Positions 21,568 to 25,450 of a stretch of DNA of 64,000 nt are shown here, one piece after another (the stretch's first letter is position 1; every line of letters starts with the position of its first letter). The stretch spans positions 62,001-126,000 of the forward strand of contig NZ_CP045997.1 of NCBI RefSeq assembly GCF_010233585.1. Reading direction: 5' to 3'. The position numbers were made by a program, and so were the translations under genes. The stretch is from Spirosoma endbachense. Lineage in GTDB: Bacteria; Bacteroidota; Bacteroidia; Cytophagales; Spirosomataceae. The notes beneath the pieces are model-generated. The model was given only the letters and a program-made list of their open reading frames with translations. It made no database searches and had not been told where the DNA came from.

Positions 21568-23277
21568 ATGAGCTTAGAATCACCGAATAGCCCCAAAAAA
21601 ACCTTGAAGTCGTTGCCTAAGTGCCCCACTGGTATTATCGGTCTGGATGAAATAACAGAAGGCGGAATACCCGAAGGTCGACCAACACTTATTTGTGGAA
21701 GTGCTGGCAGTGGTAAGACATTGATGTCCATTGAATTTATAGTTTGTGGTGCAATGGAATATAATGAGCCAGGCGTTTTTATGGCTTTTGAGGAAAAAGC
21801 GGATGAGCTAGCCATGAATGTAGCTTCATTAGGCTTTGATCTCGATCAACTTCAGAAAGAAAAACTTATCAAGCTCGATCATGTACGCATCGAGCGAAGT
21901 GAAATAGAAGAAACCGGGGAGTATGACCTGGATGGTCTTTTTATCCGATTAGGCTATGCTATCGATAGCATCGGTGCTAAACGCGTAGTACTGGATACGA
22001 TCGAGAATTTGTTTGCTGGCCTCACCAATCAGGGAATTCTGCGGGCCGAATTAAGACGGCTTTTCGAGTGGTTGAAGGCAAAAAAGGTAACGACGATAAT
22101 CACAGGCGAAAAAGGAGATGGTACTCTGACCCGTCACGGACTGGAAGAGTATGTATCTGACTGCGTAATTCTGCTTGACCACCGGATCAGTAACCAGATT
22201 TCAACCCGGCTACTGCGCATCGTTAAATACCGCGGGTCAATGCATGGAACGAACGAATACCCATTTCTGATCAATGAGAAGGGTATTTCGGTGTTACCGG
22301 TTACGTCCTTAACCTTAGATCACCCCGTTTCATCGGAACGGGTTTCAACTGGTATTCAGGCGCTGGATAAAATGCTGGAAGGGCATGGTTTTTACCGGGG
22401 TAGCAGCATTCTGGTTTCGGGCACTGCTGGTACTGGTAAAACCAGTATTGCTGCTACGTTTGCCAACGAAGCCTGCCGCAAAAAAGAACGGTGTATCTAT
22501 TTTGCCTTTGAGGAATCACCTCAACAAATCGTCCGGAATATGCATTCGATCGGTCTTGATCTTCAGCCCTATATTGACAGTGGTTTACTGAAGTTTCAGG
22601 CTTCCAGACCCACACTGAATGGTCTGGAAATGCACCTGGTAGCCATCCATAAACAGATCAAAGAATTTAAGCCATCCGTCGTAATCCTGGATCCCATAAC
22701 TAACCTGATTGCTGTCGGCTCAGTGAGCGATGTAAAATCAATGTTAATCCGGTTAATCGATTTTTTACAGTCTGAGCAAATTACTGTTATGTTTACGGCG
22801 CTCTCGCTGAATAATGTCATTAATGAGCAAACAGACGAAGGAGTATCTTCACTGGTCGATGCCTGGTTACTCGTTAAAGATATCGAACATAATGGGGAGC
22901 GGAACCGGGGATTATATGTCATGAAATCGCGCGGCATGAAGCATTCCAATCAGGTTCGGGAGTTTGTCATTACCGATAAAGGGCTTCATCTGGTTAGTGT
23001 TTATTTAGGACCGGAAGGCGTACTGACTGGTTCTGCGCGCGAAGCCTCGCAATTACAGGAAGAAACAGGTATTGTCCTGAGAGAAAATGCCGTCAATAGG
23101 AAAGACCGGGAGATTGAACGAAAACGCCTGGTACTTGAGTCGAAAATAGCTGGCCTGAAGGAGGAGTTTGAATCTGTACAGGATGAGCTAAATAAGACCT
23201 ATATCGAGGAAGAACTACGAAAGGAAGTTCTGGAAAAGAATCGGGAACAAATGATCCGTAATCGACACAATGAGTAA
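21568..23277 (+). CDS. kaiC: KaiC-family circadian-clock-type ATPase
   Basis: A 569-residue double-RecA protein. The first domain has Walker A GSAGSGKT (44-51), the catalytic pair Glu75-Glu76 (FEEK) and Walker B VVLDTIENL; the second has GTAGTGKT (285-292), FEES (Glu315-316) and VVILDPITNL. At the site of the cyanobacterial phospho-residues Ser431/Thr432 this protein reads EGVSSLVD, so Ser427-Ser428 could be phosphorylated. After residue 490 there is a long charged coiled coil absent from cyanobacterial KaiC. In cyanobacteria KaiC is an autokinase, phosphatase and ATPase that keeps time with KaiA and KaiB; elsewhere it may act in stress response. Two kaiB genes and a kinase follow at once; no kaiA is present. 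Confidence 0.95.
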   Translation: MSLESPNSPKKTLKSLPKCPTGIIGLDEITEGGIPEGRPTLICGSAGSGKTLMSIEFIVCGAMEYNEPGVFMAFEEKADELAMNVASLGFDLDQLQKEKLIKLDHVRIERSEIEETGEYDLDGLFIRLGYAIDSIGAKRVVLDTIENLFAGLTNQGILRAELRRLFEWLKAKKVTTIITGEKGDGTLTRHGLEEYVSDCVILLDHRISNQISTRLLRIVKYRGSMHGTNEYPFLINEKGISVLPVTSLTLDHPVSSERVSTGIQALDKMLEGHGFYRGSSILVSGTAGTGKTSIAATFANEACRKKERCIYFAFEESPQQIVRNMHSIGLDLQPYIDSGLLKFQASRPTLNGLEMHLVAIHKQIKEFKPSVVILDPITNLIAVGSVSDVKSMLIRLIDFLQSEQITVMFTALSLNNVINEQTDEGVSSLVDAWLLVKDIEHNGERNRGLYVMKSRGMKHSNQVREFVITDKGLHLVSVYLGPEGVLTGSAREASQLQEETGIVLRENAVNRKDREIERKRLVLESKIAGLKEEFESVQDELNKTYIEEELRKEVLEKNREQMIRNRHNE

Positions 23278-23303
23278 TCAAGAAGGCTGCTAACTGTTGA
23301 TGA

Positions 23304-23597
23304 ATGAAAACAAAAGAAGAAATTTGGGAGTTGCGACTCTATATTGCTGGAAATACAGTTAAATCCCAGACTGCGCTGGCCAATCTGAAAAAGTATTGCG
23401 AGGAGCATTTAAAGGGTAAATATATTATTGAGGTTATCGATCTACTGGTGAAGCCTCAATTGGCAGAGGGTGACCAGATTTTAGCCGTACCTACCTTAGT
23501 AAAAAAAGTACCTGAGCCAATTCGCAAGATTATTGGCGATTTATCGAACGAAGAAAAAGTGTTAGTTGGATTGAACATTCGCCCAGCAAAAATATAG
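23304..23597 (+). CDS. kaiB: KaiB-family protein, copy 1 (canonical)
   Basis: A 97-residue protein very like cyanobacterial Kai[20 protein letters not shown] at the N-terminus, [20 protein letters not shown] in the middle and [16 protein letters not shown] at the end. KaiB is a fold-switching protein which in its thioredoxin-like form binds the first ring of KaiC. The Gly-Leu-Asp near the C-terminus, where fold-switch mutations have been mapped in cyanobacteria, is Gly-Leu-Asn here. It begins 26 bases after kaiC and its stop abuts the start of the second kaiB. Confidence 0.96.
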
Positions 23598-23921
23598 ATG
23601 ATTGAGTCATCACTGCTAAACGACAAGGATACTGATCCGGATGGCGAAGGCCAGTTATATGTCTTACATTTATTTGTAACTGGCGCATCCCTGTATTCAA
23701 CGCGGGCGATTAAGAATATAAGGCACATCTGCGATCAATACCTATCCGGTAAATACTCGCTGGAAATAATTGATGTACATCAGCAACGGGAAGTAGCAGA
23801 AGAGGAACAGCTGATTGCGCTCCCTTTATTAATTAAACGCTTTCCTTTACCTGAGCGACGATTGATCGGTGACTTGTCGGATACCAGGAAGGTACTTAAC
23901 GGATTAGGACTTGCTACTTAA
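23598..23921 (+). CDS. KaiB-family protein, copy 2 (diverged)
   Basis: A 107-residue second KaiB homologue, with a 17-residue acidic N-terminal extension. The fold is recognisable: LHLFVTGASLYSTRAIKNI, LEIIDVHQQREVAEEEQLIA and RRLIGDLSDTRKVLNGLG. The conserved GNT of the first strand is GAS, the proline after LIALP is kept, and the Gly-Leu-Asp near the end is Gly-Leu-Gly. Such divergence suggests a distinct partner or fixed fold instead of a duplicate function. It directly abuts the first kaiB (TAG then ATG) and its stop overlaps the next start (TAATG). Confidence 0.93.
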   Translation: MIESSLLNDKDTDPDGEGQLYVLHLFVTGASLYSTRAIKNIRHICDQYLSGKYSLEIIDVHQQREVAEEEQLIALPLLIKRFPLPERRLIGDLSDTRKVLNGLGLAT

Positions 23922-25231
23922 TGAGGATGAACGGGGCTAAAACATACGAGCAACTTGTAGTCGAAAATGAAAGTCTACGATGGCAGCTTGAAGAAGCAAC
24001 CGAAACACTACAGGCGATTCGTACCGGCCAGATCGATGCACTGGTCGTTCAGGGCGATGATGGCCATGAGCTTTACACGCTAAAAACGGCCGATTATACC
24101 TACCGGATTTTTATTGAAACCATGAATGAGGGGGCAGTAACGCTGAATAAGGAAGGTCTTATTCTCTACTGCAATTCAACATTTGCCTCAATGGTTGACT
24201 TGCCTTTATCGAAAGTTATTGGTTTATCCTTCGATCGCTTTGCGGCTGCCACCAGCAAAGTGGATTTTGATGCCCTGTTTAATGAAGGATGGGCCGATGT
24301 TCGGAAAATTGAATTTGCGCTTAGCAGCAGTTCGGGTAAATTAGTACCCTGTCTGCTTTCAGTAACGGCGTTGGAACTCGATGGAGGTGTTTGTTTGAGC
24401 ATGATTCTGACGGATCTGACCGTGCAGAAGCAAACGCAACAACTGCTGGAAGTAAATAACCAGCAACTGGCCAAAACAAATAATGATCTGGAAGTTAGTA
24501 ACCAGGCGTTGAATCGGTCAAATGACAATCTTCAACAGTTTGCCTACATTGCCAGCCATGACTTGCAGGAACCGCTTCGAAAAATTCAGTCTTTCGGTGA
24601 TTTGCTGAAAATGCAGTACAGCGAGCATCTGGGTGATGGCGTTGAGTATATAGAGCGAATGCAGTCGGCAGCGAGCCGCATGTCGACCCTGATCAAAGAT
24701 CTACTCACCTTCTCGCGAATTTCTACGCGACAGGATAGTACCCTTTATGTACCGTTGTCTCAGGTTATTGACGCGGTTCTGAACGATCTGGACATGGCAA
24801 TCGAAGAGGCCGGTGCTGTTGTTGAACTAGACACCCTGCCGACCATATTGGGTGATCCGTCGCAACTAAGACAACTCTTTTCGAATTTGATCAGTAATGC
24901 GCTTAAATTTCGAAAACCAGATGAGTCTGCCCATATCAAGGTCAGCGCAGCGATTGTTGCTGAAGATAACTTGCCTCAATCGGTTAACCCTACCCGCCAG
25001 GCGGCTACGTATCATCGCATCGATGTAATCGACAATGGAATTGGCTTTAAGGAACAGTATCTGGATCGTATCTTCCAGGTGTTCCAGCGGTTGCATGGAA
25101 AAGATCAGTATCCGGGAACTGGTATTGGTCTCGCCATTTGTGAGAAAGTAGCGAGCAATCATGGCGGTGCCATTACAGCCAGTAGCCAGCCTGATCAGGG
25201 AGCAACGTTCAGCGTATATTTTCCCGGCTAA
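23921..25231 (+). CDS. PAS-domain sensor histidine kinase of the kai operon
   Basis: A 436-residue soluble kinase. An N-terminal coiled segment with ETLQAIRTGQIDALVV leads to a PAS domain (about 55-165), a coiled-coil linker (175-205), a HisKA domain with phospho-acceptor His213 in ASHDLQEPLRK, and a HATPase domain with N box NLISNALKF and G boxes DVIDNGIGF and GTGIGLAI. No membrane helix is seen, so input is cytoplasmic. Its start overlaps the kaiB2 stop by one base. In cyanobacteria the kinase SasA reads out KaiC through a KaiB-like domain; this one has none, but the separate second KaiB might serve that role. No response regulator is adjacent. Confidence 0.94.
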   Translation: MRMNGAKTYEQLVVENESLRWQLEEATETLQAIRTGQIDALVVQGDDGHELYTLKTADYTYRIFIETMNEGAVTLNKEGLILYCNSTFASMVDLPLSKVIGLSFDRFAAATSKVDFDALFNEGWADVRKIEFALSSSSGKLVPCLLSVTALELDGGVCLSMILTDLTVQKQTQQLLEVNNQQLAKTNNDLEVSNQALNRSNDNLQQFAYIASHDLQEPLRKIQSFGDLLKMQYSEHLGDGVEYIERMQSAASRMSTLIKDLLTFSRISTRQDSTLYVPLSQVIDAVLNDLDMAIEEAGAVVELDTLPTILGDPSQLRQLFSNLISNALKFRKPDESAHIKVSAAIVAEDNLPQSVNPTRQAATYHRIDVIDNGIGFKEQYLDRIFQVFQRLHGKDQYPGTGIGLAICEKVASNHGGAITASSQPDQGATFSVYFPG

Positions 25232-25347
25232 ACTGAATCCTGTTTCGATTGACATCTGATTATCAGATTTCTATCAGTAGATAGTCTCTGAAAGGCGTTG
25301 GTATCTACTGGCAAAATTCACAACAGAAACCTTTAGTTGAATACAAG

Positions 25348-25383
25348 CAAAGCCGCCGTGTCACTCTGAACACGGCGGCTTTG
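25348..25383 (+). terminator. terminator of the kai operon
   Basis: A perfect 14-bp stem, CAAAGCCGCCGTGT with ACACGGCGGCTTTG, an 8-base loop and a T-rich tail (TTGTTTATTG). It lies 116 bases after the kinase gene. Confidence 0.85.
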
Positions 25384-25450
25384 TTGTTTATTGTTTGCCT
25401 GTATGGCCCGTTTCTGAGGGCAGGCGAATCTCTTTTGTCTGAACAATTTA

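Follow-up and report, generated by a model that had tools for sequence, protein, structure and literature searches.

How does a Kai system that has no KaiA pass its signal on? To our knowledge this is an open question for KaiA-less Kai systems at large, and it is posed in compact form by a kaiC-kaiB-kaiB-histidine kinase operon of Spirosoma endbachense (Bacteroidota, family Spirosomataceae). The operon lies in a window of 64,000 nucleotides (assembly GCF_010233585.1, contig NZ_CP045997.1, positions 62,001 to 126,000), which is the whole stretch of DNA analysed; coordinates below count from its first letter. The first 62 residues of the fourth protein form a motif whose occurrence in Bacteroidota follows that of kaiB, and the two KaiB proteins are of different classes. 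The features concerned are these:

21568..23277, plus strand: kaiC, 569 residues, with CI and CII ATPase domains and an 89-residue C-terminal stretch (open reading frame, Pfam, structure alignment)
23304..23597, plus strand: kaiB1, 97 residues, KaiB class 1, predicted ground-state fold (Pfam, tree, AlphaFold2)
23598..23921, plus strand: kaiB2, 107 residues, KaiB class 2, predicted fold-switched (thioredoxin-like) fold (Pfam, tree, AlphaFold2)
23921..25231, plus strand: PAS histidine kinase, 436 residues, phospho-acceptor H213 (Pfam, string search for boxes)
23921..24106, plus strand: N-terminal 62-residue kinase motif, consensus ...LEEAxxTIxAIRxGxVDALVVxxxxGxQxYTLKxADxxYR

Placement of the open reading frames confirmed the order kaiC, kaiB1, kaiB2, PAS histidine kinase, with the gaps of 26, 0 and -1 bases that a preliminary description of this DNA had given. 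Pfam scored the KaiC ATPase at 369.8 bits in two stretches, in keeping with the double-domain KaiC claimed there, and KaiB1 and KaiB2 at 94.2 and 79.9 bits (PF07689 cut-off 27); in the fourth protein it found PAS, HisKA and HATPase_c. NCBIfam likewise named KaiC, KaiB, KaiB and a PAS-HisKA-HATPase kinase, both KaiBs being under the equivalog cut-offs for cyanobacterial KaiB. Because the Pfam scores exceed curated cut-offs and the gene order is kept in many genomes, chance is excluded.

The kinase has the H, N, G1 and G2 boxes by string search, H213 being the expected acceptor, and lacks the KaiB-like N-terminal domain that marks SasA (no PF07689 match). No NCBIfam model matches its first 62 residues, and no Pfam model does so consistently. 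They are kept across phyla, with A32, I33, G36 and D39 invariant in 30 of 30 aligned rows, and the Kai-locus kinase of Rhodobacter sphaeroides starts with the same motif. Ten relatives were scanned, and in them motif and PAS are followed by a HisKA kinase, a hybrid kinase, an HWE kinase, an HD domain or nothing. What is conserved in the fourth protein is its front end; the outputs behind it are exchanged, the kinase being one of them. The preliminary description had credited the operon with its own output kinase; a PAS-HisKA-HATPase_c gene is indeed present, but its kinase domain is the exchangeable end.

Other loci show the range of these ends. The gene after kaiB2 is short in L051-L056, L031 and L080 (frames of 234-289 residues), and the two of these that were scanned, L051 and L080, encode motif and PAS and no kinase. 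The motif protein of Oscillochloris (L057, 5899-7866) has PAS, GAF and a terminal HD domain (HD_5); because it ends in HD_5, an output of the cyclic di-guanosine monophosphate type is possible there. In Solidesulfovibrio (L070, 3853-6677) a motif-PAS kinase extends over two overlapping frames, through a frameshift or an assembly error.

Motif matches occurred in 31 of 395 Bacteroidota genomes, 28 of them strong (E <1e-16) and three weak and partial, and all 28 strong copies lie 12-263 bases downstream of a kaiB. KaiB exceeded its cut-off in 37 of the 395 genomes; the motif was found in 28 of these, and a strong copy in none of the other 358. Of the motif genomes, 20 carry kaiB as a tandem pair and eight carry it once; the nine KaiB genomes without the motif have no tandem pair. 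Kinship inflates these counts, and their weight lies on the linkage, not on a p value; the profile used (A1) was trained on Kai-adjacent proteins only, so that it favours Kai-linked matches, and scoring covered only 16 candidates in many genomes and all 47 in the S. endbachense genome. From this linkage we infer that the motif binds KaiC or KaiB. As a sequence that follows kaiB in Bacteroidota and recurs at the R. sphaeroides locus it is a candidate for the receptor, a role that can be tested where KaiC and KaiB have already been purified, in R. sphaeroides.

Beyond Bacteroidota the picture is looser. Searching plasmids by tblastn with the motif returned two records and then one, and the R. 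sphaeroides front end (E up to 1) returned 15, of which 13 are also in the kaiB list; the gene neighbourhood was read for five of those 13. A Burkholderia plasmid record (E 0.3) has no profile match and is absent from the kaiB list, and a Novosphingobium plasmid (L108, 4932-5687), likewise outside that list, encodes an HWE-type kinase that contains roughly half the motif; no Kai gene lies within 10 kb of it. A protein search gave 676 front-end proteins in other groups, their gene context not read. Because of the partial Novosphingobium motif and these 676 proteins, we confine Kai-exclusivity to the strong copies of Bacteroidota; outside that phylum it is not established.

The locus is a conserved type, not unique. 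Scanning genome contigs gave 56 loci with a related KaiC, and the order kaiC-kaiB-kaiB-motif protein recurs in Bacteroidota, Chloroflexota (Oscillochloris), Myxococcota (Polyangium), Acidobacteriota, Solidesulfovibrio, Magnetococcales, Verrucomicrobiota and one Pararhizobium plasmid. Within the family of S. endbachense, 64 of 200 genomes have a KaiB above the cut-off, 61 of them with two copies, two with three and one with a single, stop-interrupted copy. The notion of a layout special to this host thus fell. In Flavobacterium sp. SUN052 (L043) KaiC is 80% identical to that of S. endbachense and KaiB2 clusters with Spirosoma, which suggests transfer of the operon between orders. A 6-kb contig labelled Candidatus Methanomethylicus, and so assigned to an archaeon (L066), carries a bacterial-type kaiC-kaiB-kaiB-motif kinase set, by misbinning or transfer. 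On a Hymenobacter plasmid (L105, 3986-4279) a solitary kaiB lacks a neighbouring kaiC and sits some 2 kb from the gene of a MobV relaxase.

The two KaiBs were rightly described as different proteins. In a KaiB tree of 138 rows, a single supported clade (97/95) unites 56 of 56 first copies with 12 single copies, and all 56 second copies fall outside it; the tree has few columns and long branches, and only this split was used. On that basis KaiB1 and KaiB2 belong to two old classes. Could KaiB2 nevertheless be a duplicate of KaiB1 that is redundant or in decay? KaiB2 does evolve faster, with 74% identity to its counterpart in L037 against 94% for KaiB1, and 47% against 74% to L061. The age of the two classes, the second copy kept in 61 of the 64 family genomes with KaiB (the lone single copy being stop-interrupted) and the conservation of class-specific residues all stand against this, and we consider it very improbable.

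We modelled both proteins with AlphaFold2 from their ten nearest relatives, following the protocol of PMC10808063. KaiB1 took the ground-state order (mean predicted local distance difference test score, pLDDT, 66.8), and fold-switched KaiBs ranked lower among its matches (template-modelling score about 0.44). Its 17 best Protein Data Bank matches are KaiB crystals (4kso, 1vgl, 1wwj, 2qke, 1r5p), structures that we take to be in the ground state. KaiB2 took the fold-switched order (mean pLDDT 68.9); its top matches are the Legionella KaiB 4kun, then 8fwj, 5jyt and 5jwr (KaiC-bound or fold-switch-stabilised KaiB), and the SasA N-domain (1t4y, 6x61) appears from rank 11.

The substitutions I68R/V83D/N84R flip the fold of R. 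sphaeroides KaiB (PMC10808063). At positions 68 and 83, in the numbering of that paper, which is one above the annotated protein, KaiB1 has I73 and V88 and KaiB2 has E86 and N101. Both positions are hydrophobic in 56 of 56 class 1 rows, whereas in class 2 they are so in 25 and 21 of 57 rows. Among the 56 second copies, taken locus by locus, 32 have polar residues at both positions, 21 have hydrophobic residues at both and three are mixed, the hydrophobic ones being Bacteroidales-type, from other phyla or from a few further Bacteroidota. Because of those 21, we propose for the S. endbachense lineage only that KaiB1 rests in the ground-state fold and KaiB2 in the fold-switched, SasA-like fold, as the models predict and in agreement with the residues at the two positions; each model gives one resting state and so does not bear on switching itself. 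Two naturally paired KaiBs of one operon whose predicted resting folds are opposite would make it possible to study, with native proteins, what fold switching does.

KaiC is of the R. sphaeroides type. It has two ATPase domains, with Walker A at residues 44-51 and 285-292 and paired catalytic glutamates at 75-76 and 315-316, and its nearest solved chains are R. sphaeroides KaiC (8dba; E 1e-189, residues 16-568, tail included). Two further features follow from the alignment:

22846..22851, plus strand: KaiC phosphosite pair S427-S428 (Ser-Ser), aligned to S413-S414 of R. sphaeroides KaiC (numbered as in PMC10076222)
23008..23274, plus strand: C-terminal tail of KaiC (residues 481-569), corresponding to the R. 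sphaeroides KaiC coiled coil (8dba alignment)

According to PMC10076222, the R. sphaeroides tail forms a dodecamer and stands in for KaiA, a residue chain connects it to the phosphosites, and the tail-bearing KaiC clade has Ser-Ser sites and a C-terminal tail that exceeds those of other clades by about 50 residues. The S. endbachense protein has S427-S428 and 89 residues past residue 480. That paper names eight allosteric residues, of which six (S, S, W, Y, V, R) are unchanged here; the other two differ, with Leu in place of V421 and Met in place of L438. A heptad count on the tail gave no clear register (best 0.42), so that the coiled coil is assigned by homology. By sequence type this is a KaiC2-type, tail-bearing KaiC; KaiA-independent dodecamer formation and autophosphorylation would follow by analogy with the R. 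sphaeroides relative. Tail-less KaiCs, with 5-11 residues after the end of CII, occur in Bacteroidota (L032, L033, L075, L081, L082, L084, L087) and in Chloroploca (L074, L076, L077), with no KaiA seen adjoining any of them. The seven from Bacteroidota also lack the NQVRE stretch, to which two residues of the chain linking tail and phosphosites belong, as though chain and tail had been lost jointly.

Is KaiA then missing, as the preliminary description held? The S. endbachense genome is a single contig of 10.3 Mb, and PF07688 gave no match above its cut-off there (best E 0.47), a search that a far-diverged KaiA-like protein would escape; as a control, Synechococcus elongatus was the single genome above cut-off. 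PF06745 found the two halves of the operon's KaiC (237 and 138 bits) and no second double KaiC, the other matches being partial and in different proteins (34.0 and 29.8 bits, barely above the cut-off) or below it (22 bits). kaiB1 and kaiB2 are the sole PF07689 matches genome-wide, with no KaiB outside the operon. A self-sustained circadian clock would have at hand a complete two-domain KaiC, KaiB and an output kinase; the PF07688 result and the term hourglass, chosen by the authors of the nearest studied system (PMC10076222), speak against it, and we regard it as very unlikely. The complete module without KaiA that had been claimed is supported by the genes, their order and the type of KaiC, as a statement about anatomy and the nearest solved relative; the timer or stress role suggested with it is putative.

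At about even confidence, we read the operon as a KaiBC timer, or a switch that responds to metabolic state, which works independently of KaiA and brings its own output protein. If KaiC behaves as its R. sphaeroides homologue does, its tail would join two hexamers and keep the A loop exposed. At a high ATP/ADP ratio KaiC would phosphorylate itself at S427/S428; as the ratio falls, ADP-bound CI rings would capture KaiB, the ATPase would run faster and KaiC would stay dephosphorylated. KaiB1 would be the slow, fold-switching KaiB that sets the delay, and KaiB2, resting in the KaiC-binding, SasA-like fold, might compete with KaiB1 on CI or seed it there. With its N-terminal motif and the PAS domain next to it, the kinase would sense the assembly of KaiC and KaiB and hand the state to an unlinked response regulator. 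Every binding step in this scheme, and all its timing, is inferred.

Several observations weigh against this reading. Eight of the 28 motif loci, and R. sphaeroides, have a single KaiB, making the motif independent of KaiB2. The AlphaFold2 models are modest, at the pLDDT values given, and were run with no control protein, and structure predictions of this kind may echo training structures. The fold division is not general, since both positions are hydrophobic in 21 of the 56 second copies. The KaiC tail has Met where the relative has L438. KaiB2 also retains P58, P65 and P67, the three prolines of switching KaiB, which are held to cause slow switching (PMC11551320) and so speak against a full fold lock.

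An energy or stress switch without timing, in which KaiC reports ATP/ADP, the PAS kinase adds a further cue, the KaiBs are brakes of different affinity and the operon adjusts a stress response with no useful delay, is quite possible, though we lean against it. The nearest studied system responds to ATP/ADP (PMC10076222), the Legionella KaiB that best matches the KaiB2 structure is called a stress factor (PMC10808063), and Spirosoma genomes with Kai are larger (median 8.6 vs 6.6 Mb, 16 vs 18 genomes). Retention of the KaiC tail, the Ser-Ser sites and a switching-type KaiB1, to which the relative owes its slow steps, argues for timing.

A narrower version of the timer seems rather unlikely. In it, a fold-switching step and an always-switched, SasA-like step would be split over two KaiBs that share one KaiC ring, perhaps mixed, and the signal would be read by a Kai-dedicated docking motif plugged onto kinases, hybrid kinases, HD domains or a PAS domain alone. 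A mixed ring was considered because in S. endbachense the positive side of the KaiB-KaiB contact known from cyanobacteria is retained in KaiB2 and the negative side in KaiB1. The lateral charges from KaiB2 to KaiB1 are favourable there and in many, not all, Bacteroidota, and neutral or unfavourable elsewhere; neighbouring R. sphaeroides KaiBs are described as lacking contact (PMC10076222). With charge varying among loci and no such contact in R. sphaeroides, we dropped the charge pattern as general support. If true, such a design would amount to an output route that Kai systems without KaiA use generally and that has gone unrecognised.

Candidate inputs and partners were also tried. The genome has no photosynthetic reaction centre (PF00124) and one microbial rhodopsin (PF01036), so 'non-photosynthetic' holds for the host and light capture via rhodopsin may occur. 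As a linked energy input rhodopsin was rejected: among 200 family genomes 21 have both rhodopsin and KaiB, 43 KaiB only, 70 rhodopsin only and 66 neither, a negative association (Fisher p 0.015), and the Spirosoma sample has a rhodopsin match in 34 of 34 genomes and KaiB in 16. A linked response regulator was likewise set aside: on clustering 549 flanking open reading frames, the largest clusters, judged from coordinates, were minus-strand frames inside the operon. A receiver gene follows the kinase in L040, L041 and L043; none was seen downstream in L037, L038, L042 and L092 by eye in the lists of open reading frames, with no domain search made. Mirror-tree partial correlations with the kinase front end (34 loci, after removal by hand of 14 named near-duplicates or relatives) were 0.52 for KaiC, 0.37 for KaiB2 and 0.28 for KaiB1 (permutation p 0.001-0.002), which does not discriminate, and KaiB2 as a special kinase partner was rejected.

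At the operon's edges, sigma-70-like promoter sites are no more frequent than chance expects, and a Bacteroidota-type pattern has no match before kaiC. The -1 overlap depends on the kinase ATG at 23921; since its relative in L038 begins at the residue matching ATG 23927, there may instead be a 5-base gap. The operon is followed by one further feature:

25346..25385, plus strand: terminator-like hairpin of 16 pairs, beginning 115 bases past the kinase stop

Terminator-like sites number six against 4.4 expected, and this hairpin stands out by stem length only.

Operons of kaiC, kaiB and a PAS histidine kinase, including those of purple bacteria, have been published, as have kaiC-kaiB clusters followed by kinase or GGDEF/EAL genes, Kai proteins in Bacteroidetes and in a Dyadobacter, and two kaiBC clusters in Rhodospirillum (PMC10931921). 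Kai modules in Bacteroidota, at 37 of 395 genomes and 64 of 200 in the family, are less rare than stated in PMC11573002. In the literature searched, which left subscription papers largely outside, we found no tandem KaiBs, paired fold classes or N-terminal motif.

The nearest of the known systems is the KaiBC hourglass of R. sphaeroides (Cereibacter; L102, PMC10076222), which shares the Ser-Ser sites, the KaiC tail, the lack of KaiA, the kaiC-kaiB-kinase order and the N-terminal kinase motif; it differs in its single KaiB and in an HWE kinase with two PAS stretches in place of HisKA/HATPase_c. The kaiC-kaiB-PAS histidine kinase operon of Rhodopseudomonas palustris, compared by its published description only (PMC4794148), also has a PAS histidine kinase and no KaiA described, but one KaiB in a three-gene order. 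Legionella pneumophila KaiB (Lpp1115, 4kun) is the best KaiB2 match (TMt 0.87) and has polar E and S at both positions, but is 44% identical to KaiB2, and its tree placement is unsure, on a long branch. The cyanobacterial KaiABC clock differs in its KaiA, of which none was found in S. endbachense. Cyanobacterial SasA (1t4y, 6x61) has a histidine kinase output as here, and its KaiC-binding N-domain is resembled by the KaiB2 model; unlike in SasA, the predicted SasA-like fold is here a separate small protein, and the kinase carries no KaiB domain.

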